A stretch of 61,811 nt of DNA from Nitrospirota bacterium (GTDB lineage: Bacteria; Nitrospirota; Thermodesulfovibrionia; UBA6902), in NCBI GenBank assembly GCA_016213945.1, contig JACQZF010000072.1:1-61811 (forward strand), read 5' to 3'. Below, piece by piece: positions 10,056-53,631 of this stretch. Numbering within the stretch: the stretch's first letter is position 1; every line of letters begins with the position of its first letter. The notes beneath the pieces are model-generated. The model was not told the origin of the DNA, ran no database searches, and worked only from the letters and a program-made list of their open reading frames with translations. The translations under genes and the position numbers were made by a program.

Positions 10056-10326
10056 GTGGACGGTCCCTGCTCTTAATGATCTCAAAGACGCCGGTGACTT
10101 TATCTTTCAAGACAGCCCTCAATCAGCGAAGCGAATGGCTGAAAGAGTTCAAGAGGCTGTTGAGTATCTGATTGAATATCCCAATATGGGCAGACACGGA
10201 CGTGTATCGGGGACGAGAGAACTTATTGTCTCAGGCACTCCGTTTATAGTTGTATATCGAACCGTTGAAGCAGGTATTCAGATATTGAGAGTCCTCCATC
10301 ATGCACGAAAATGGCCAGCCGTTTAG
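10045..10326 (+). CDS. RelE/ParE-family toxin
   Basis: A 93-aa protein of the RelE/ParE fold, starting at GTG 10045: LEWTVPALNDLKDAGDFI, then SAKRMAERVQEAVEYLIEYPNMGRHG, and the C-terminal strands ELIVSGTPFIVVYR and ILRVLHHARKWP. The YPNMGRxG turn and the HHARKWP end are typical of ParE-type toxins, which poison gyrase, though RelE-type mRNA cleavage cannot be excluded. It is coupled to the upstream RHH antitoxin. The pair sits next to the decayed cas locus, a common place for such modules to accumulate. Confidence 0.88.
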   Translation: MHLEWTVPALNDLKDAGDFIFQDSPQSAKRMAERVQEAVEYLIEYPNMGRHGRVSGTRELIVSGTPFIVVYRTVEAGIQILRVLHHARKWPAV

Positions 10327-15706: not shown

Positions 15707-15745
15707 AAAGAGTGAAGAGTTATGTGAGTGAAGAGTTATGAGTTT
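15707..15745. repeat. Short direct repeat before radA
   Basis: GTGAAGAGTTATG occurs twice in tandem. It looks like one of the degenerate short tandem arrays scattered through this window. Confidence 0.5.
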
Positions 15746-15786
15746 TAAGGCGACATTTTAAATGTTAAAGTTTGGTAAAATACCCC

Positions 15787-17127
15787 ATGTCAAAAACCAA
15801 AATCCTCTATCAATGCCAGAGCTGCGGGTATGCAACTCCCAAGTGGCTCGGGAAGTGTCCTGACTGCGGGGAGTGGAACAGCTTTGTAGAGGAGGCGCGC
15901 GTCGCAAAAATCAAAGGCCAGAAGACCGCCCAGCCGGTTGTGCTCTCGGAAATTGCGCCTTCCTCAGACAGCAGGTTCTCCACCGGGATCAAAGAATTAG
16001 ACAGGACCCTCGGCGGCGGGGTGGTGCTCGGTTCAGTCGTCCTTGTAGGCGGAGACCCCGGGATCGGGAAATCCACGCTCATCCTTCAATCGCTTAACGG
16101 GCTTACAAAGCTCGGCAAGGTGCTCTACGTCTCAGGCGAGGAATCGCCGGAGCAGGTAAAATTAAGGGCCGAGAGATTACAGATCGCATCCGATAAGATC
16201 ATCCTCCTTCCCGAAACATCCCTTGAAGGCATAATCTCCGTTGCTCAGGACATCAATCCGCAGGTGATCGTGATCGATTCGATCCAGACGATCTTTTCCC
16301 TTGAGCTAACCTCAGCGCCGGGCTCGGTCAGCCAGATAAGGGAATGCGCGACAAAGCTGATGTTCCTTGCAAAGAAACATGCTGTGCCACTCTTCATCAT
16401 AGGGCACGTCACAAAGGAAGGCGCGATAGCGGGGCCAAAGGTGCTGGAGCATATTGTGGACACAGTGCTGTATTTCGAGGGCGACAGGGGCAGCCCGTTC
16501 AGGATCATCAGGGCCGTGAAAAACAGGTTCGGCCCTGCCAATGAGATAGGCGTATTTGAGATGCAGGAATCAGGTTTGAAAGAAGTCGACAACCCTTCGC
16601 AGCTTTTTCTCTCGGAGAGGCCGCTGGATGTCTCAGGCTCAGTGGTTACCGTCAGCATGGAGGGCACGAGGCCTTTGCTTGTGGAGATCCAGGCGCTTGT
16701 CACCGCGTCGAACTTCGGAGTTCCGCGAAGGACGGCCCTCGGCGTTGACTACAACAGGATCAATCTCCTTATCGCTGTTCTCGATAAGCGTATCGGGATG
16801 CAGCTTGGCGGGATGGACATATTTGTAAATGTTGTGGGCGGGCTGAAGATTGACGAGCCTGCCATTGACCTGGGGATCATCGCGGCAATAGCCTCATCGT
16901 TTAAAAACACTGTCATAGCGCACGGGACATTTACATTCGGAGAAATTGGATTGTCTGGTGAAGTCAGGGCCATCGGCCAAGCTGAGACGAGGATAAAAGA
17001 GGCAGCGAAATTAGGTTTTAAAAAAGGCATCGTGCCTGCAAGCAATGCGCAGAAATTGGACGGGCATGATGTTGAAATAATCGGAGTAAAGAATGTCGAA
17101 GAAGCCATTGAAATACTGTTTTATTAA
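15787..17127 (+). CDS. radA: DNA repair protein RadA
   Basis: A 446-aa RadA (Sms). It has an N-terminal C4 zinc finger (CQSCGYATPKWLGKCPDCG), a RecA-like ATPase with Walker A GGDPGIGKSTL near residue 92, the RadA-specific KNRFG motif (VKNRFGPANEIG) and a C-terminal Lon-like domain. RadA is a hexameric helicase that extends branch migration in homologous recombination. The ATG at 15787 begins the zinc-finger region; the frame is open 15 nt further upstream. Its 3' end overlaps the next gene by 35 nt. Confidence 0.95.
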   Translation: MSKTKILYQCQSCGYATPKWLGKCPDCGEWNSFVEEARVAKIKGQKTAQPVVLSEIAPSSDSRFSTGIKELDRTLGGGVVLGSVVLVGGDPGIGKSTLILQSLNGLTKLGKVLYVSGEESPEQVKLRAERLQIASDKIILLPETSLEGIISVAQDINPQVIVIDSIQTIFSLELTSAPGSVSQIRECATKLMFLAKKHAVPLFIIGHVTKEGAIAGPKVLEHIVDTVLYFEGDRGSPFRIIRAVKNRFGPANEIGVFEMQESGLKEVDNPSQLFLSERPLDVSGSVVTVSMEGTRPLLVEIQALVTASNFGVPRRTALGVDYNRINLLIAVLDKRIGMQLGGMDIFVNVVGGLKIDEPAIDLGIIAAIASSFKNTVIAHGTFTFGEIGLSGEVRAIGQAETRIKEAAKLGFKKGIVPASNAQKLDGHDVEIIGVKNVEEAIEILFY

Positions 17128-17854
17128 GTGGGAAGTGGGAAGTGGGAAGTGGGAATTTAAAAAAGTATCGCTTCTTCGCAAGTTGCTCTTTACTTCTTAC
17201 TTCTTACTTCTTATTTCTTACTTCTCCGTGGGCTGCGCCCCCAAAGTCGCCCCGCCGCCGCAATACATCAAAGAAGAACTGTCTCTTGATGAAGCCATTA
17301 AAAAAGCAGGCAGTGACATTGAGGTCCTGAAGGCGATCGCGGACATCAGGATCGAGAAAAATAATGAGCTGTACGATTTCATCAACGCCTCAGTGCTTAT
17401 AAGAAAACCCGACTGGGTACACATGCGGATATATAAATTCGGAATGCTCGTCAGGGATTTCATGATCAAGGACGGGGAACTGTATTCCCTTGTCGGAAAC
17501 ACCGACATTAAACTCAGAAGTGTCGCAAATGAATTTCTCCGCTCGATCTTCTGGTGGGAGGATTTAAACGGCGGTTCCATGCGCAGGGAGGGAGAGGAAT
17601 ATATCATCAGGGCGGAAAATAAAGAGATCCATCTTGACAGCGCAACTCTCCTGCCTTTAAAGCAGGACATCATGCTGCCGGACAAGGCCATTCACATTAA
17701 ATACAGTGAACCCGTAAATAACGAAGGCTTCTGGTATCCGTCACAACTGGAAATTTTAATGGGCGATTTCAGATTTGACGTAACGCTCGTAAAGCTCATC
17801 AAAAACCCGCATCTTGGGGAAAATGATTTCAGGACGCCGTTAGGAGATAAATAA
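17093..17854 (+). CDS. Putative outer-membrane lipoprotein (LolB/DUF4292-like)
   Basis: About 253 aa. A hydrophobic signal stretch (LLFTSYFLLLISYFSVG) is followed by Cys, as in a lipoprotein, although Ser rather than Leu at -3 makes the lipobox weak. The mature part has a LolB-like pattern: DIEVLKAIADIRIEKNNELYDF, then WVHMRIYKFGMLVRDFMIKD and KQDIMLPDKAIHIKYSEP. Such proteins bind lipids or lipoproteins at the outer membrane. The start is uncertain: ATG 17093 lies inside radA, and GTG 17135 or TTG 17195 are alternatives. The signal peptide is encoded by short tandem repeats (17126-17224), which is very unusual. Confidence 0.65.
   Translation: MSKKPLKYCFIKWEVGSGKWEFKKVSLLRKLLFTSYFLLLISYFSVGCAPKVAPPPQYIKEELSLDEAIKKAGSDIEVLKAIADIRIEKNNELYDFINASVLIRKPDWVHMRIYKFGMLVRDFMIKDGELYSLVGNTDIKLRSVANEFLRSIFWWEDLNGGSMRREGEEYIIRAENKEIHLDSATLLPLKQDIMLPDKAIHIKYSEPVNNEGFWYPSQLEILMGDFRFDVTLVKLIKNPHLGENDFRTPLGDK
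17126..17224. repeat. Heptamer arrays encoding a signal peptide
   Basis: AAGTGGG repeats (17126-17155) are followed by TTACTTC repeats (about 17190-17224). In RNA the arms GAAGUGGG and CUUACUUC can pair fully if G-U pairs are allowed. Three TTACTTC units translate to the hydrophobic heptapeptide LLLTSYF in every frame order, and here they supply the membrane core of the lipoprotein signal. Confidence 0.75.
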
Positions 17855-17925: not shown

Positions 17926-19170
17926 ATGCGATTTATTGCCGACCTGCACATTCACTCAAAATACTCACGCGCCACCAGCAAAGATATGTCTCCTGAGAGC
18001 ATCTGGAGGTGGGCGCAGCTCAAGGGAATTACGGTGATCGGCACCGGCGATTTCACTCATCCGAAATGGTCCATGGAACTGAACGAGAAACTCGAACCTG
18101 CCGGCAACGGACTGTTCAGGCTGAAAAAGGAATTTCAGTCCGGTGACATCTACGGTTCCTGCAGGGCGGAGGTATTTTTTCTTCTCTCCGCTGAGATAAG
18201 CTGCATCTACAGCAAGAACGGAAAGACGAGAAAGGTACACTCATTAATTTTTGTCCCTGATTTCGCTGACACAGCAAAGATCAGCCTGGCGCTTTCAAAG
18301 ATCGGCAACATCAACTCAGACGGAAGGCCGATACTCGGACTTGACGCAAAGGAGCTTTTGAAGATAGTAATTGATAACGCGCCTGAAGCGATGTTTGTTC
18401 CGGCGCACGCCTGGACACCGCACTTCTCGGTCTTCGGCGCTGTATCGGGTTTTGATTCAATGGAGGAATGCTTTGAAGAACTGACTCCTCATATCCACGC
18501 GATCGAGACAGGGCTCTCATCAGACCCGGCCATGAACTGGAGGCTTTCGGCGCTCGACAGGCTGACGCTCATCTCCAATTCCGACGCCCATTCACCTGCC
18601 AAGATAGGGCGCGAGGCAAATATCTTTGACACGGAGATCTCATACAAGAAAATGATGAATGCGCTGAAAACGAGAAAGGGCTTTCTTGGCACAATAGAAT
18701 TTTTCCCTGAAGAAGGGAAGTACCATCATGACGGCCACAGGCAGTGTGAGGTGGGCCTTTCTCCAAAAGAAACGGTGAAGCATAACTATCTCTGCCCGGT
18801 CTGCGGCAAGAAAGTGACTGTCGGCGTTGTGCACCGGGTTGAAAAACTTGCGGACCGTGAAGAAGGATTTAAGCCAAAGGGCGCGCCGGCCTTTCATTCA
18901 ATAATTCCGCTTCCTGAGATAATTGCGGAGACTTTAAAAGTTGGGGCCAACAGTAAGGCAGTTGATAAGCAATATCAGAAGCTGCTTCAGTCCCTCGGCA
19001 ATGAATTCAAAATCCTGATGGATGTTCCTCTCAATGATATTGAGAAGGCAGGTTCACCGCTTTTGCGTGAGGCAATCTCCAGAGTGCGTAAAGGCAATGT
19101 CCACATCGCGCCCGGCTATGACGGCGAATACGGGAAGGTGAAAATCTTCGAGACAGCGGAAAGGAAATAA
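17926..19170 (+). CDS. Endonuclease Q-like PHP-domain protein
   Basis: A 414-aa protein with an N-terminal PHP domain (IADLHIHSKYS with metal-binding His residues, GTGDFTHPKW, AHAWTPHFSVFGAVSGFDS and the late SNSDAHSP). After it comes a zinc-ribbon region with Cys in QCEVG and LCPVCG, then a helical C-terminus (LPEIIAETLKVG). This order matches endonuclease Q, which nicks DNA 5' of deaminated bases such as uracil and hypoxanthine. EndoQ is known mainly from archaea and some bacteria. The start follows AAAGGGAT. It is joined to the downstream TerB gene by a 2-nt gap. Confidence in the family is high; activity is inferred. Confidence 0.82.
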   Translation: MRFIADLHIHSKYSRATSKDMSPESIWRWAQLKGITVIGTGDFTHPKWSMELNEKLEPAGNGLFRLKKEFQSGDIYGSCRAEVFFLLSAEISCIYSKNGKTRKVHSLIFVPDFADTAKISLALSKIGNINSDGRPILGLDAKELLKIVIDNAPEAMFVPAHAWTPHFSVFGAVSGFDSMEECFEELTPHIHAIETGLSSDPAMNWRLSALDRLTLISNSDAHSPAKIGREANIFDTEISYKKMMNALKTRKGFLGTIEFFPEEGKYHHDGHRQCEVGLSPKETVKHNYLCPVCGKKVTVGVVHRVEKLADREEGFKPKGAPAFHSIIPLPEIIAETLKVGANSKAVDKQYQKLLQSLGNEFKILMDVPLNDIEKAGSPLLREAISRVRKGNVHIAPGYDGEYGKVKIFETAERK

Positions 19171-37105: not shown

Positions 37106-38008
37106 TTGCCAGGCGAACCAAAACGATTAGAACATCCGAAGATAGTTTATTTAATCGGTTTCATCTTTAAAATAGTTACGCTTTCAGTGTTGATAGCTGT
37201 TGTATACCAGATAACCTTTGCGCCTCATGGCCCCTCGCTGCTGGTGCCCATTCAAAAGAAGATGGAGGAAAAGCAGAAGTCAGCTATCATGGAAGAAGTA
37301 AAGCGGCAGGAGGAATACGAAAAGCACAGGCACTTCCACCATATGGTTGAGACCCAGAAGCTGCCGGAAAATATGCGTCCGGTCTGTTATATCTGTCACT
37401 CAGATTATCCTCACAGCAAGAATAAAAAAGTCAGGGCAATGCTAAATATGCACACTGAGTTCTTTGTCTGCGAAACATGCCACATAGAAGACAAGCCAGG
37501 GGTGACCGTAGCATATAAATGGTACAACCCTCTTGAAAAAGAGCCTAAGGGTCCGTTAGAAGACAAGCCAGGGGTGACCGTAGCATATAAATGGTACAAC
37601 CCTCTTGAAAAAGAGCCTAAGGGTCCGTTTTTCGGCACGAGCTATGAACCTGATACCGGCAATCTTGTGGAGGTTGAGGACCAGTTCTCAAAGATAGCCC
37701 CTTTCTACAGAATAGGCGGGAAGTTTGAGTCGGCGATCCAGATACAGGACGCGCCGCTTGCCCAGGATTACGTGAAAGTGAGAGACCAGCTTACGCCTGA
37801 ACAAAGAGACAATGTCAAAAAGAAATTTCACGTGGGTATCAAGGCAAAGGGACATGAGTGCAAAAAATGTCATTCAAAGGGCGGCCTTATGGATTTCAAA
37901 GCGCTCGGCTTTTCGGAGAACAGGATCGTAGATATAGAACAACTCAATATAGCGGGCATGATAACCAAGTACGAAAAATTCTATATCCCCAATCTTTTCC
38001 AGGAATAA
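37106..38008 (+). CDS. Membrane-anchored trihaem cytochrome c (module 1)
   Basis: A 300-aa protein with one N-terminal transmembrane helix (IVYLIGFIFKIVTLSVLIAVVYQ) and three CxxCH sites: CYICHSDYPH, CETCHIED and CKKCHSKGG. The rest is periplasmic. Residues 128-175 are a perfect 24-residue duplication (EDKPGVTVAYKWYNPLEKEP... twice). The module 2 paralogue has no such duplication. The TTG start is supported by the strong GAGGAGGTGA site 8 nt upstream. It probably relays electrons between the octahaem and the large multihaem protein. Confidence 0.85.
   Translation: MPGEPKRLEHPKIVYLIGFIFKIVTLSVLIAVVYQITFAPHGPSLLVPIQKKMEEKQKSAIMEEVKRQEEYEKHRHFHHMVETQKLPENMRPVCYICHSDYPHSKNKKVRAMLNMHTEFFVCETCHIEDKPGVTVAYKWYNPLEKEPKGPLEDKPGVTVAYKWYNPLEKEPKGPFFGTSYEPDTGNLVEVEDQFSKIAPFYRIGGKFESAIQIQDAPLAQDYVKVRDQLTPEQRDNVKKKFHVGIKAKGHECKKCHSKGGLMDFKALGFSENRIVDIEQLNIAGMITKYEKFYIPNLFQE
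37487..37630 (+). repeat. 72-bp perfect tandem duplication inside a cytochrome gene
   Basis: Copies at 37487-37558 and 37559-37630 are identical except for the last base (TTA against TTT). The unit is 24 codons, so the frame is kept. The near identity points to a recent event or to an assembly artefact. Confidence 0.95.
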
Positions 38009-44398: not shown

Positions 44399-45306
44399 TT
44401 TTTTTGATTGCCTTCATAGCATCACCAACCCCGGCCCATGCCATCAGGCTGACGAATGTCCGGCATCTCTTTGATTTAACTCACAGCTTCAAGCAGCCCA
44501 GCGATGTGGCCGTTTCAAAAGAAGGCCTGATATATGTCGTGGACGGCGTAAACAACGCTGTCAAGGTCTTCAATCAAAACGGCAAGTTCGTATTTTCATT
44601 CGGCGCAAAGGGGCAGGCAGAGGGAGAGTTTAAATTCCCGCTGGGCATAGGCATTGACAGCGCGGGAAGAGTTTACATAGCGGACTCCGGCAATCACCGC
44701 GTGCAGATCTTTAATTCAACCGGGGTGTTCCTTTCACAAATTAAAATCACCTCAAAGAACGGCAGGCCCGCAGACCCGACCGATGTTTCAATTGACGAGT
44801 CCGCGGGCAGAATCTACATAGTCGACAATGACAATCACTGCATTCATGCATATGACCGGGCGACATTGCAGAAGATCGAATCCTTCGGCGCGCCTGGAGA
44901 AGGAGACAGGGAATTCAGATACCCGTTCTTGATGGCCCTTGACGCAGAGCGTTATCTTTATATAGTGGATGTCATTAATACGCGCGTCCAGATCTTAAGT
45001 CCCGATGGACTGTATGTCGCAAGCGTCGGCAAATGGGGTGTTGAAAAAGGTGAATTCTTCAGGCCTAAGGGGGTCGCAATTGACAGGAACGGGAAGATAT
45101 ATGTAAGCGACAGCTATATGGGAGTGATCCAGGTGTTTGAACCGGTCGGCGATTTTTATTCGGCGATCGGCGACACGGACAAAGGAGCGGTAAGGAAATT
45201 CGTTACGCCCGCGGGGATATTCATAGACAACAAAGACAGGCTCTATGTCGTGGAAATGTTTGCAGAGAAGGTAAGCGTGTATCAGATAGAAAAGGATATG
45301 GAATGA
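44284..45306 (+). CDS. Secreted NHL-repeat beta-propeller (module 2)
   Basis: A 340-aa paralogue of the 38088 gene with about six NHL repeats (DVAVSKEGLIYVVDGVNNAVKVF, GEFKFPLGIGIDSAGRVYIADSGNHRVQIF and more) and a signal peptide ending in PTPAHA. The first 45 residues come from a dispersed repeat (44264-44398), so the start is less sure; ATG 44284 is the only good one and has a weak site (GCAGAGA). Its stop overlaps the next gene (ATGA). Confidence 0.78.
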   Translation: MINFIHRCRRFHRLSKRPLLKICVILSNLRTILFCVPCVFLIAFIASPTPAHAIRLTNVRHLFDLTHSFKQPSDVAVSKEGLIYVVDGVNNAVKVFNQNGKFVFSFGAKGQAEGEFKFPLGIGIDSAGRVYIADSGNHRVQIFNSTGVFLSQIKITSKNGRPADPTDVSIDESAGRIYIVDNDNHCIHAYDRATLQKIESFGAPGEGDREFRYPFLMALDAERYLYIVDVINTRVQILSPDGLYVASVGKWGVEKGEFFRPKGVAIDRNGKIYVSDSYMGVIQVFEPVGDFYSAIGDTDKGAVRKFVTPAGIFIDNKDRLYVVEMFAEKVSVYQIEKDME

Positions 45307-47840
45307 CAGGGGAGAAGTCAAAAGTCAAAAGTCAAAAGTCAAAAGTCCGGGGAAAGAATATATTAAAAATATCCTTGATCTTGCATTTTGTATTTTGCAT
45401 TTTTTGTTTTGAAAGCATTTCATACGCCTCGGAAAATGCGCCGAGAAACCCGGATTCGGCCAAAGAATGCGCGATATGCCACTACAACTGGATAGACACC
45501 TTTTACATTGAGGGAAGAGGCTCGGACCTTGTGCCGTATACAAGTGAAAAGACCGTGGCAAAGCCCGAGATGTGTTTTTCATGTCACGACGGAAGCGTGG
45601 TTGATTCGAGGGCCAGGGTATATAATGATTTAAGGCACAAGATCAACCAGCCGCCTCCTGCCGCAATGAAGATACCGAAAATATTTCCGCTGGATAAAGA
45701 CGGTAAGATGCAGTGCTTTACCTGCCACACCGCGCACGGCGTGCCGAGCGAGATGGGGATGGAGAGGACCATCTTCGTCAGGGCGTCAAACAAGAATTCA
45801 GCAATGTGTGTAATGTGCCACGCCGACAAAGACGGAGGGACGGCATCCGGCAACCACCCCATTGGCCCGGGAGAGAAAGAGATCTCAAAGGCCCTCATTT
45901 CTTACGGCGCTGTTATCGGAGACGGGAAGAACCAGATCATCTGTGAAACCTGCCACACGGTCCACGGGTCTCCTAACGCAAGTTTCCTTATAGAGAGCGC
46001 AAAGGACTCCCGCCTCTGTCTCGAATGCCATACGGACAAAAATATCTTTACCTCTGACGGCAAAAGGAACCACTATCACGTCATAAATGTAAAACCTGAG
46101 AAAGTGAAGATCCCGGAAGAGCTGTTTCAGAAAGGGGCGGAATTAGGATTCAATGCCGAGATTATATGCCAGACATGTCATAAGGTGCACAATAATAAGA
46201 TCGAGGAGAAACTGTTATTAATCAAAAGAGACAACAAGTCTACCCTGTGCCTGACCTGCCATACAGATAAAAAATATATTGAGGTCACAAAACACAATCT
46301 CCAGCACTCCGCCCCTGGAGAAAAAAATCTTGACGGAAAAAGCGTGGCAGAAGCAGGCATATGTTCGCCCTGTCACCTGCCGCATAAAGAGGCCAGGAAG
46401 GCCGGAGAAGGTACGGACTTCACCACACGGCTCTGCCTCAGTTGTCACAGTAAGGGGAACATCGCAGATAAAACTATCCCTGTAGACTATCGTCATCCGG
46501 TGGATGTTAACCCCTTTGAAAGCAACTCGCCGGATACATTGCTTACAGTGATCGGGGTTGAAAAGGACAAGTTGACCCTTCCGCTTTTTAATAAATTCGG
46601 CATTCAGGACAAAGGCGGCAATGTCACATGCGCGACCTGCCATGACCCTCACAGATGGCGCGCTGATTCCGCTGAAGGAGAGATAAGGAAAGAAGCAAAG
46701 GGTGACAATAAAACTTCCTTTCTCAGAAGGCCTGCGCCTGACTTGTGCAAGGAATGTCACAGTAATAAATTTTACATTGCCGACTCCAAGCATGATATTG
46801 CAAAGGTGGCCCCTGAGACAAAAAATTACCTGGACCAAACGCCGGCCCAATCAGGACTATGCGGGGTCTGCCACAATGTGCATGGTGGCCAGAAAAGCTA
46901 CCTATGGGCCAGGGAAATAAACACAAAGAGCGGGCAGGTTGTGCAGGACTTGTGCATAAGTTGCCATAATGAAAACGGCATGGCAAAGAAAAAAATAGTG
47001 AAGGACTATTCCCACCCCTTTAATATCACGCCTGCCGAAAAAGGGCTCACTACCACGTTGCCTCTTTTTGACAAAAACGGAAAGGTATCGAAAAGCGGCC
47101 TGATGGCATGCCAGACCTGCCACGACCCTCACCGCTGGGACCCCGTGAAAATCATACCGGGAGATCATTCAACTGTTGAGGGCACTTCACAAAACAGTTT
47201 CCTGAGGCTTACAAACTCACCGTCTTCCAGTCTCTGCGGGAACTGCCATCCCGAACAAAGTTATGTTGAAAGGACCGACCACGACATGATTGTTAGCGCG
47301 CCTGATACAAAAAATATTATCGGAGAGACCCCTGCTGAATCAGGCCCGTGCGGCGTTTGTCATATTGTTCACAACGGCAAGAACAAATTGAAACTCTGGG
47401 GACAAAGCTTTGCAAAAGGGGCCAGCATGATGGACATGATGTGTAATTCCTGTCACTCTGATAACGGCGTTGCAAAAAACAAGATACCCACGATTGTCTC
47501 TCATCCTGAAGGGCAGCTTATTACCAACGTTGGAAAAGATGCAAAGGGGAAACCCAACTATTTCCCGCTCTTTGATCAGCATACGGGAAAGAACGTGTCA
47601 GTCGGCAATATCTCGTGTCCGTCGTGTCACAACGTTCATCAATGGGACCCGAAATTTCATACCAAAGGCACGGGCGCGAATGTTGAAGGCACAGCAACCA
47701 ACAGCTTTCTCAGGATGCAGACTTACAGTCTGCTGTGCATCGACTGCCATGGCCTTGACGCGCTTTTCAGATTTAAATATTATCATGATCCCCATGAGAG
47801 GGTGGAAAAAGGTTCATTTGCGCAGGGAATGCCGAGGTAG
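45303..47840 (+). CDS. Large multihaem cytochrome c, 20 CxxCH (module 2)
   Basis: An 845-aa paralogue of the 39033 gene with 20 CxxCH motifs (two more than module 1): CAICH, CFSCH, CFTCH, CVMCH, CETCH, CLECH, CQTCH and so on to CIDCHGLDALFRFKYYHDP. Repeat units again share SGPCGVCHIVHN-type cores. The signal peptide (ISLILHFVFCIFCFESISYA) and the basic region before it are encoded by AAAAGTC and TTTTGCA heptamer arrays. The ATG overlaps the NHL stop by 4 nt. Probably the terminal electron conduit of the module. Confidence 0.85.
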   Translation: MTGEKSKVKSQKSKVRGKNILKISLILHFVFCIFCFESISYASENAPRNPDSAKECAICHYNWIDTFYIEGRGSDLVPYTSEKTVAKPEMCFSCHDGSVVDSRARVYNDLRHKINQPPPAAMKIPKIFPLDKDGKMQCFTCHTAHGVPSEMGMERTIFVRASNKNSAMCVMCHADKDGGTASGNHPIGPGEKEISKALISYGAVIGDGKNQIICETCHTVHGSPNASFLIESAKDSRLCLECHTDKNIFTSDGKRNHYHVINVKPEKVKIPEELFQKGAELGFNAEIICQTCHKVHNNKIEEKLLLIKRDNKSTLCLTCHTDKKYIEVTKHNLQHSAPGEKNLDGKSVAEAGICSPCHLPHKEARKAGEGTDFTTRLCLSCHSKGNIADKTIPVDYRHPVDVNPFESNSPDTLLTVIGVEKDKLTLPLFNKFGIQDKGGNVTCATCHDPHRWRADSAEGEIRKEAKGDNKTSFLRRPAPDLCKECHSNKFYIADSKHDIAKVAPETKNYLDQTPAQSGLCGVCHNVHGGQKSYLWAREINTKSGQVVQDLCISCHNENGMAKKKIVKDYSHPFNITPAEKGLTTTLPLFDKNGKVSKSGLMACQTCHDPHRWDPVKIIPGDHSTVEGTSQNSFLRLTNSPSSSLCGNCHPEQSYVERTDHDMIVSAPDTKNIIGETPAESGPCGVCHIVHNGKNKLKLWGQSFAKGASMMDMMCNSCHSDNGVAKNKIPTIVSHPEGQLITNVGKDAKGKPNYFPLFDQHTGKNVSVGNISCPSCHNVHQWDPKFHTKGTGANVEGTATNSFLRMQTYSLLCIDCHGLDALFRFKYYHDPHERVEKGSFAQGMPR
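45314..45411. repeat. Heptamer arrays at a cytochrome start
   Basis: AAAAGTC four times (about 45314-45347) and TTTTGCATTTTGTATTTTGCA (about 45381-45411). The first encodes KSKVKSQKSKV, the second the hydrophobic core LHFVFCIFCF. Confidence 0.75.
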
Positions 47841-53510: not shown

Positions 53511-53631
53511 TGCTGATTATGCCGCAGGCAAATCAGAGTTGAAAGTTGAGAGTTAAAAGTTATAATATAGAACACGCTGAAAGGCGTTAGGATTTATCAC
53601 CTTTTAAAATTTGCGAAATAATTTTTGGTTC

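Follow-up and report, generated by a model that had tools for sequence, protein, structure and literature searches.

Heptamer array pairs as likely signal peptides: a lipoprotein gene overlapping radA in a Nitrospirota bacterium

In a Nitrospirota bacterium, an inverted pair of heptamer arrays, translated from a start codon inside radA, is likely to be the signal peptide of a lipoprotein. The pair lies in a 61,811-nucleotide stretch of DNA, hereafter the window (assembly GCA_016213945.1, contig JACQZF010000072.1, positions 1 to 61,811). Comparison among relatives shows that such arrays are translated in frame, recur across gene families, turn over in their units and are replaced between sister species. 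That the array-coded peptide works as a signal, and that the lipoprotein is exported and lipidated, is inferred from sequence, without transcript or proteomic data. The sequences compared come from draft, metagenome-type assemblies. The origin of new signal peptides remains an open question, and a T-rich unit with a length indivisible by 3 provides a hydrophobic segment in any frame. This rule has apparently been reused on conserved genes, namely those for TolB, the flagellar ring proteins, LptE and a LolB-like protein. Heptamer signals represent a testable route to de novo export signals and a caution for gene callers and N-terminal annotation; they also pose the question of what sets the period at seven.

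The lipoprotein gene and its heptamer arrays

The upstream gene, radA (15772..17127; all window features given here are on the forward strand), is an ORF with Pfam matches to the RadA-type Zn ribbon, the KaiC/RecA ATPase and Lon_C. A Shine-Dalgarno-like GGAG (17083-17086), a 6-nt spacer and an ATG (17093-17095) can be read within its 3′ end, and orthologues are arranged likewise. The ORF opened by this ATG (17093..17854, 253 aa), which is supported by relatives and by a fold match, has the N-terminus MSKKPLKYCFIKWEVGSGKWEFKKVSLLRKLLFTSYFLLLISYFSVGC followed by APK. Two arrays lie within this N-terminus as an inverted pair. The purine arm, AAGTGGG ×4.3 (17126..17155; 100% matches in TRF), starts inside the radA stop codon and encodes KWEVGSGKWE; the repeat KWEVGSG is hydrophilic and occupies the position of the n-region. 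A spacer (17156..17189), translated approximately as FKKVSLLRKLL, supplies K/R charges, such that the n-region is basic overall (MSKK...KK..RK). The pyrimidine arm, TTACTTC ×5.1 (17190..17225; 93% matches in TRF), follows as the hydrophobic h-region FTSYFLLLISYF. The lipobox ends in SVGC (17225..17236, Cys codon 17234-17236), with Ser at position -3; LLLISYFSVGC matches a PROSITE PS51257-type pattern, and the Cys does not vary across 19 orthologues. In the window as a whole, two-copy TTACTTC occurs four times, against 0.43 expected from shuffles.

An earlier sequence-only reading had proposed a lipoprotein signal made from heptamer repeats at 17126-17224, and the TRF arrays, the ORF and the lipobox uphold this proposal, with export still inferred. 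Its statement that TTACTTC yields a hydrophobic 7-residue repeat in any frame also held (LLLTSYF in every frame, GRAVY 1.63). The further claim that the arrays form the membrane core held only in part, since the right array is hydrophobic and the left AAGTGGG array is a hydrophilic n-region.

The two arms could form an uninterrupted 30-bp RNA stem (17126-17155 with 17194-17223), a potential hairpin that begins at the radA stop codon and spans 17126..17223, with an MFE of -41.3 kcal/mol and a z of -5.7 relative to dinucleotide shuffles. This stem is much more stable as the sense strand than as the antisense strand. The exact complement of TTACTTC, GAAGTAA, would place an in-frame TAA every 21 nt; AAGTGGG escapes TAA yet keeps G-U pairing.

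Counted from the preferred start at ATG 17093, the lipobox Cys is residue 48, beyond the usual range of roughly 15-35; this, like the Ser at position -3, weighs against the signal reading. An alternative GTG at 17135 would place the Cys at residue 34, and it remains possible that this is the real start.

The mature lipoprotein (17234..17851) is predicted by AlphaFold (pLDDT 85.5) to adopt a LolA/LolB fold. The best Foldseek matches of the model were a LolA-superfamily protein (3buu, E 7.7e-8) and LolB (8cm1, E 1.6e-7). By sequence, no match was found in Pfam or PDB, and DUF4292 gave a sub-threshold match in one orthologue only; sequence-level identification was accordingly dropped, and identity came from the fold instead. 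Membership of the LolA/LolB superfamily is thus a model prediction. The protein shares this predicted fold with LolA and LolB (3buu, 8cm1, 1iwm) and a lipobox with LolB; it differs from them in lacking a sequence-level match and in the position of its gene 3′ of radA, and its function is inferred only from the fold.

Orthologous and other heptamer-built signals

The lipoprotein is present in 46 of 61 related genomes. Most array-free relatives possess a short, unrelated signal of about 20 residues that overlaps radA (e.g., MSKKLFRYFCFSLLIFFIAC); in these genomes the radA stop and the mature start are only some 10-20 nt apart. At the same site, 40-220 nt with varied heptamers are found in the bacterium's own genus, as well as in two further families of its order. 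The units are TTACTTC in its own genome, in G004 and in G041 (G numbers denote related genomes), a mixture of TTACTTC and TCACTTC in G007, TTACTGC in G003 and G006, ACTCCTT in G006 and G008, and TTCACTG in G042 and G038. Between its own genome and that of the sister species G004, the array has the same length. On a RadA tree, the array state requires five changes and is present on at least two separate branches; a single ancestral insertion is therefore not favoured. In G008 (L036, ~1278-1497), the signal region also carries a longer, inverted-repeat-like insert (GTCATTCCCGATGTAGTAATCGGGAATCCAG...), which is in frame and gives a very long n-region.

Although this segment spans 40-220 nt, the reading frame set by the radA-overlapping start is preserved in nine of the ten orthologues with arrays. 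The purine arm of G007 reads AAGTGGG, AAGTAAG, AAGTGAG and AAGTGGG, in which AAGTGGG is confined to the register that a stop would enter with AAGTAAG or AAGTGAG; units in the other registers keep their TAA or TGA. Judged from sequence, this pattern indicates that translation begins at the original start and not at one inside the array. The sequence-only reading had named two observations that could decide the matter. The unrelated signals of most array-free relatives favour it. A start downstream of the array, which would have refuted it, is very unlikely because the sole in-frame start past the array, GTG 17228, would leave no signal ahead of the conserved Cys and because nine of ten orthologues with arrays stay in frame with the start that overlaps radA.

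A second example in the window is a multihaem cytochrome ORF (45303..47840), in which the ATG overlaps the upstream stop (ATGA). Its signal consists of arrays placed directly 3′ of this overlap: a purine arm of AAGTCAA ×4.7 (45315..45347; n-region KSKVKSQKSKV) and a T-rich arm of TTGCATT/TTGTATT (45381..45411; h-region HFVFCIFCF).

With a period-7 score cut-off of ≥13, heptamer-built signal regions were found among relatives for FlgH (10/27), FlgI (17/27), FlgA (10/28), TolB (20/30) and LptE (13/30), with units that vary among orthologues. The control periods 5, 6, 8 and 9 reached this cut-off at one locus over all families. These five families were chosen for their arrays in the bacterium's own genome, the relatives were chosen without that criterion, and the orthologue counts are not independent. 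The consecutive genes flgA, flgH and flgI (L109, 14768-17412) each possess a heptamer-built signal with different units. In TolB, the upstream stop and the mature start are separated by 65-164 nt (19/19 in one frame); in FlgH, the separation is 58-139 nt (10/10 in one frame). As signal length varies while the frame stays fixed, the arrays are translated. Mature proteins of the bacterium and G004 are 92-97% identical. The LptE and FlgH signals are conserved between the two, and the length difference in the TolB purine arm is exactly 21 nt (3 units). FlgA and FlgI each have unrelated signals in the two genomes, set between closely matching flanks. Array and non-array signals are similar in core hydrophobicity (2.2-2.7 vs. 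2.3-2.9) and in n-region charge (1.9-4.4 vs. 2.7-3.3).

Arrays were absent from the signals of BamA and Pal, at about 60 loci, and from RecA N-termini, which rules out heptamers as a universal signal source. Since BamA and Pal never have arrays, the array-built signals are a set of recurrent sites and not a rule. The idea that dispersed T-rich heptamers are ready-made export signals held for FlgA, FlgH, FlgI, TolB, LptE and the multihaem cytochrome, with four qualifications: units other than TTACTTC also serve, no BamA or Pal signal is involved, most arrays lie elsewhere, and export is inferred.

Genome-wide arrays and competing explanations

A census of arrays with at least three perfect copies covered 1.54 of the 3.5 Mb of the bacterium's own genome, sampled in stretches. 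It returned 40 arrays at period 7, one at period 8 and none at periods 5, 6 or 9; a shuffled sample contained no period-7 array. The units fall into 20 classes without a common consensus. In 428 kb of relatives' loci, 128 period-7 arrays were counted, compared with 0-7 at other periods, and a pattern search across the phylum for one unit only, AGAAGTC ×4, found it in 14 of 246 genomes. Per 100 kb, exported-type ORFs contain 37.8 arrays in their first 60 codons, other N-termini 5.1, the remaining coding DNA 4.1 and intergenic DNA 7.1, such that exported N-termini are approximately 9-fold denser than other coding DNA (Poisson P 4e-11) and 5-fold denser than intergenic DNA. This comparison relies on ORF heuristics for gene calls and is partly circular, as the exported class was set partly by N-terminal hydrophobicity, which the arrays themselves supply. 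For the flagellar, Tol and Lpt proteins, export is established on independent grounds.

Overall, 72 of 88 arrays lie inside ORF calls. The bulk lie outside signals, many of them in frame within enzymes. NCBIfam identified PurL, FlgI, FlgH, FlgA, TolB, RecJ and PriA among the genes with in-frame arrays; others we take, from motifs read by eye, to encode HisC, HemK, YbeY, MnmA, LeuS, a P-type ATPase and LptE. In the cobalamin genes of G009 (L361, compared with L088, 10000-18600), most array positions are shared but the units differ, indicating that array sites can persist while units turn over. This comparison rests on G009 alone, the cluster being unmatched in G004 and G007. Dispersed repeats of about 80-110 bp also occur in L088 (~18049-18159 and 10130-10213) and are present in high copy number in G007 and G004. 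In PurL (L110, 1127-5287), residues ~1076-1114, between the synthase and glutaminase parts, match dispersed places in other genomes, and this stretch is probably a translated dispersed repeat serving as an interdomain linker. LeuS, assigned by motif, has one loop (L227, L228, L230) in which array pairs vary in unit by species and the purine arm always comes first.

All 35 close array pairs are ordered purine-pyrimidine (RY), with none in the order YR; RY is the order of the n- and h-regions of a signal. Of these pairs, 29 are N-terminal, and four internal pairs are RY too. An inverted purine...pyrimidine pair reads RY on either strand. Arms within a locus are more alike (0.726) than arms matched by permutation (0.655, sd 0.018), and 21 of the 35 pairs fold better than arm-shuffled controls, leaving 14 without excess pairing. 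Over the 35 pairs, no sense/antisense bias was detected (20/35). RNA-level selection through G-U polarity was dropped as an explanation, as the sense-favoured stem of the window is not general.

The explanation we prefer begins with the arithmetic of the unit. Since 3 does not divide 7, an array passes through all frames and encodes a fixed seven-residue repeat. T-rich units make this repeat hydrophobic, and purine-rich units make it hydrophilic (K/R/E/Q/S). Purine arm and spacer would then provide the polar, basic n-region and the pyrimidine arm the hydrophobic core, with the lipobox Cys next. A stop-free, in-frame pair situated past an upstream stop and ahead of a mature exported domain would be a usable signal, owing to its frame-run repeats and strand-symmetric order. 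Arrays may appear, expand and be rewritten genome-wide, with selection retaining those that are in frame and free of stops; retention would be easiest where sequence is flexible, as in signal peptides and surface loops. Slippage, inter-array exchange and template switching between arms all fit the data, and the DNA process is inferred to be slippage together with exchange or template switching. A bolder reading, which we regard as no more than possible, is that heptamer hairpins are a self-propagating DNA module fixed repeatedly as interchangeable signal peptides. If true, frame- and orientation-independent export cassettes would swap conserved signals en bloc, decoupling the evolution of signal peptides from that of the mature protein.

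The strongest competitor is passive tolerance, in which neutral period-7 slippage products are kept wherever the protein is loosely constrained. Signals would simply be the most permissive place, purifying selection would keep hydrophobic strands there, and nothing would be ready-made. It draws support from the in-frame arrays of PurL, HisC, HemK, RecJ, PriA and the P-type ATPase, from intergenic arrays, from the presence in G009 of other units at the same sites, and from the constant absence of arrays in BamA and Pal. Against it stand the roughly 9-fold and 5-fold excess at exported N-termini over other coding and intergenic DNA, the 35:0 ratio of RY to YR, and the swapping of FlgA and FlgI signal blocks between sisters, which exceeds the prediction of slow unit drift; on balance, we lean slightly against this view. 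A hairpin element of MITE or REP type might instead act on mRNA, e.g., by stabilising or uncoupling radA, with the signal peptide as a by-product. The 30-bp stem from the radA stop codon (z -5.7), the 21 of 35 RY pairs that outfold their arm-shuffled controls and the likeness of same-locus arms (0.726 against a permuted 0.655, sd 0.018) speak for such an element. Nevertheless, it appears unlikely, as 14 of 35 pairs lack excess pairing, sense and antisense are unbiased (20/35), the 20 unit classes have no common consensus, and the conserved frame requires a coding role.

Two further explanations fare worse. As contingency loci, the arrays would shift frame by 7-bp slippage and thereby act as an on/off switch for the lipoprotein and for other exported proteins. 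An N-terminal coding unit indivisible by 3 is the classic arrangement for this behaviour, and Haemophilus influenzae HMW1A is reportedly phase-variable, in a paper discussing heptanucleotide repeats (PMC8262952). We consider this very unlikely, given that array-bearing TolB and FlgH orthologues are in frame in 29 of 29 cases, that the TolB length change is exactly 21 nt, that the lipoprotein array is unchanged relative to G004 and that the arrays are short. Chance, whereby T-rich codons of a hydrophobic stretch merely look repetitive, can appeal to the general T-richness of signal cores. It is all but excluded by the excess of period 7 over periods 5, 6, 8 and 9 in the same segments and by a shuffled sample without a 3-copy period-7 array; low complexity was rejected on the same period controls and shuffles.

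Known repeat systems and other repeats in the window

Heptamer repeats have been described as cyanobacterial STRR, as TAACTGA in Beggiatoaceae (PMC4679880) and as GGGAATC or GGGGA(C/T)T in Xanthomonas and Nostoc (PMC4692102). Like these, the present arrays are dispersed, few-copy 7-bp arrays with period 7 dominant, and they meet the criteria of heptanucleotide SSRs (tandem 7-bp units, at least three near-perfect copies and a genome-wide period-7 excess). Published heptamers are mostly intergenic, with approximately one consensus per genome, although reverse-orientation TAACTGA arrays are read through as LSVISYQ inside ORFs (PMC4679880). In contrast, the present arrays comprise 20 unit classes with paired purine and pyrimidine arms, often lie in frame in conserved genes and form signals. 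The criterion of cyanobacterial or TAACTGA-type STRR, i.e., intergenic position and one consensus, is consequently unmet (72/88 in ORF calls, 20 classes).

Rickettsia palindromic elements and other MITE-like repeats are translated within genes (reviewed in PMC2229807). They share with the present arrays the placement of inverted-repeat DNA in frame in conserved protein genes, but they conform to a family consensus roughly 100-150 bp long, whereas the heptamer arms are short, variable in unit and without a shared consensus. The family-consensus criterion is likewise unmet: units vary between copies and orthologues. As for inverted repeats, 21 of 35 pairs are significantly complementary. The nearest precedent, described by Delihas (in PMC2229807), is the Yersinia YPAL/RU-2 element, which makes up part of YPO1552's predicted signal peptide. 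There too, a repeat element supplies a predicted signal peptide; that case concerns one locus and a putative new protein, while here signals of TolB, FlgA/H/I, LptE and the LolB-like protein are rebuilt recurrently across genera. Beyond Delihas, the open-access literature searched contained no precedent for conserved signals rebuilt from heptamers. As far as that literature extends, heptamer repeats and element-derived signals are known separately, and the repeated rebuilding of conserved signals from heptamers is apparently undescribed.

Other repeats were observed in the window. Just 5′ of radA (15710-15740), a perfect 16-bp repeat is present twice (GAGTGAAGAGTTATGT). An ORF with CXXCH-type motifs (MRPVCYICH..FFVCETCH) contains a perfect, in-frame 72-bp tandem duplication at 37485-37629 (24 aa, EDKPGVTVAYKWYNPLEKEPKGPL). 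Finally, an AGTTGAA/AGTTAAA heptamer array (53535-53561) lies between two apparent tRNA genes, which were recognised by eye without a tRNA scan.
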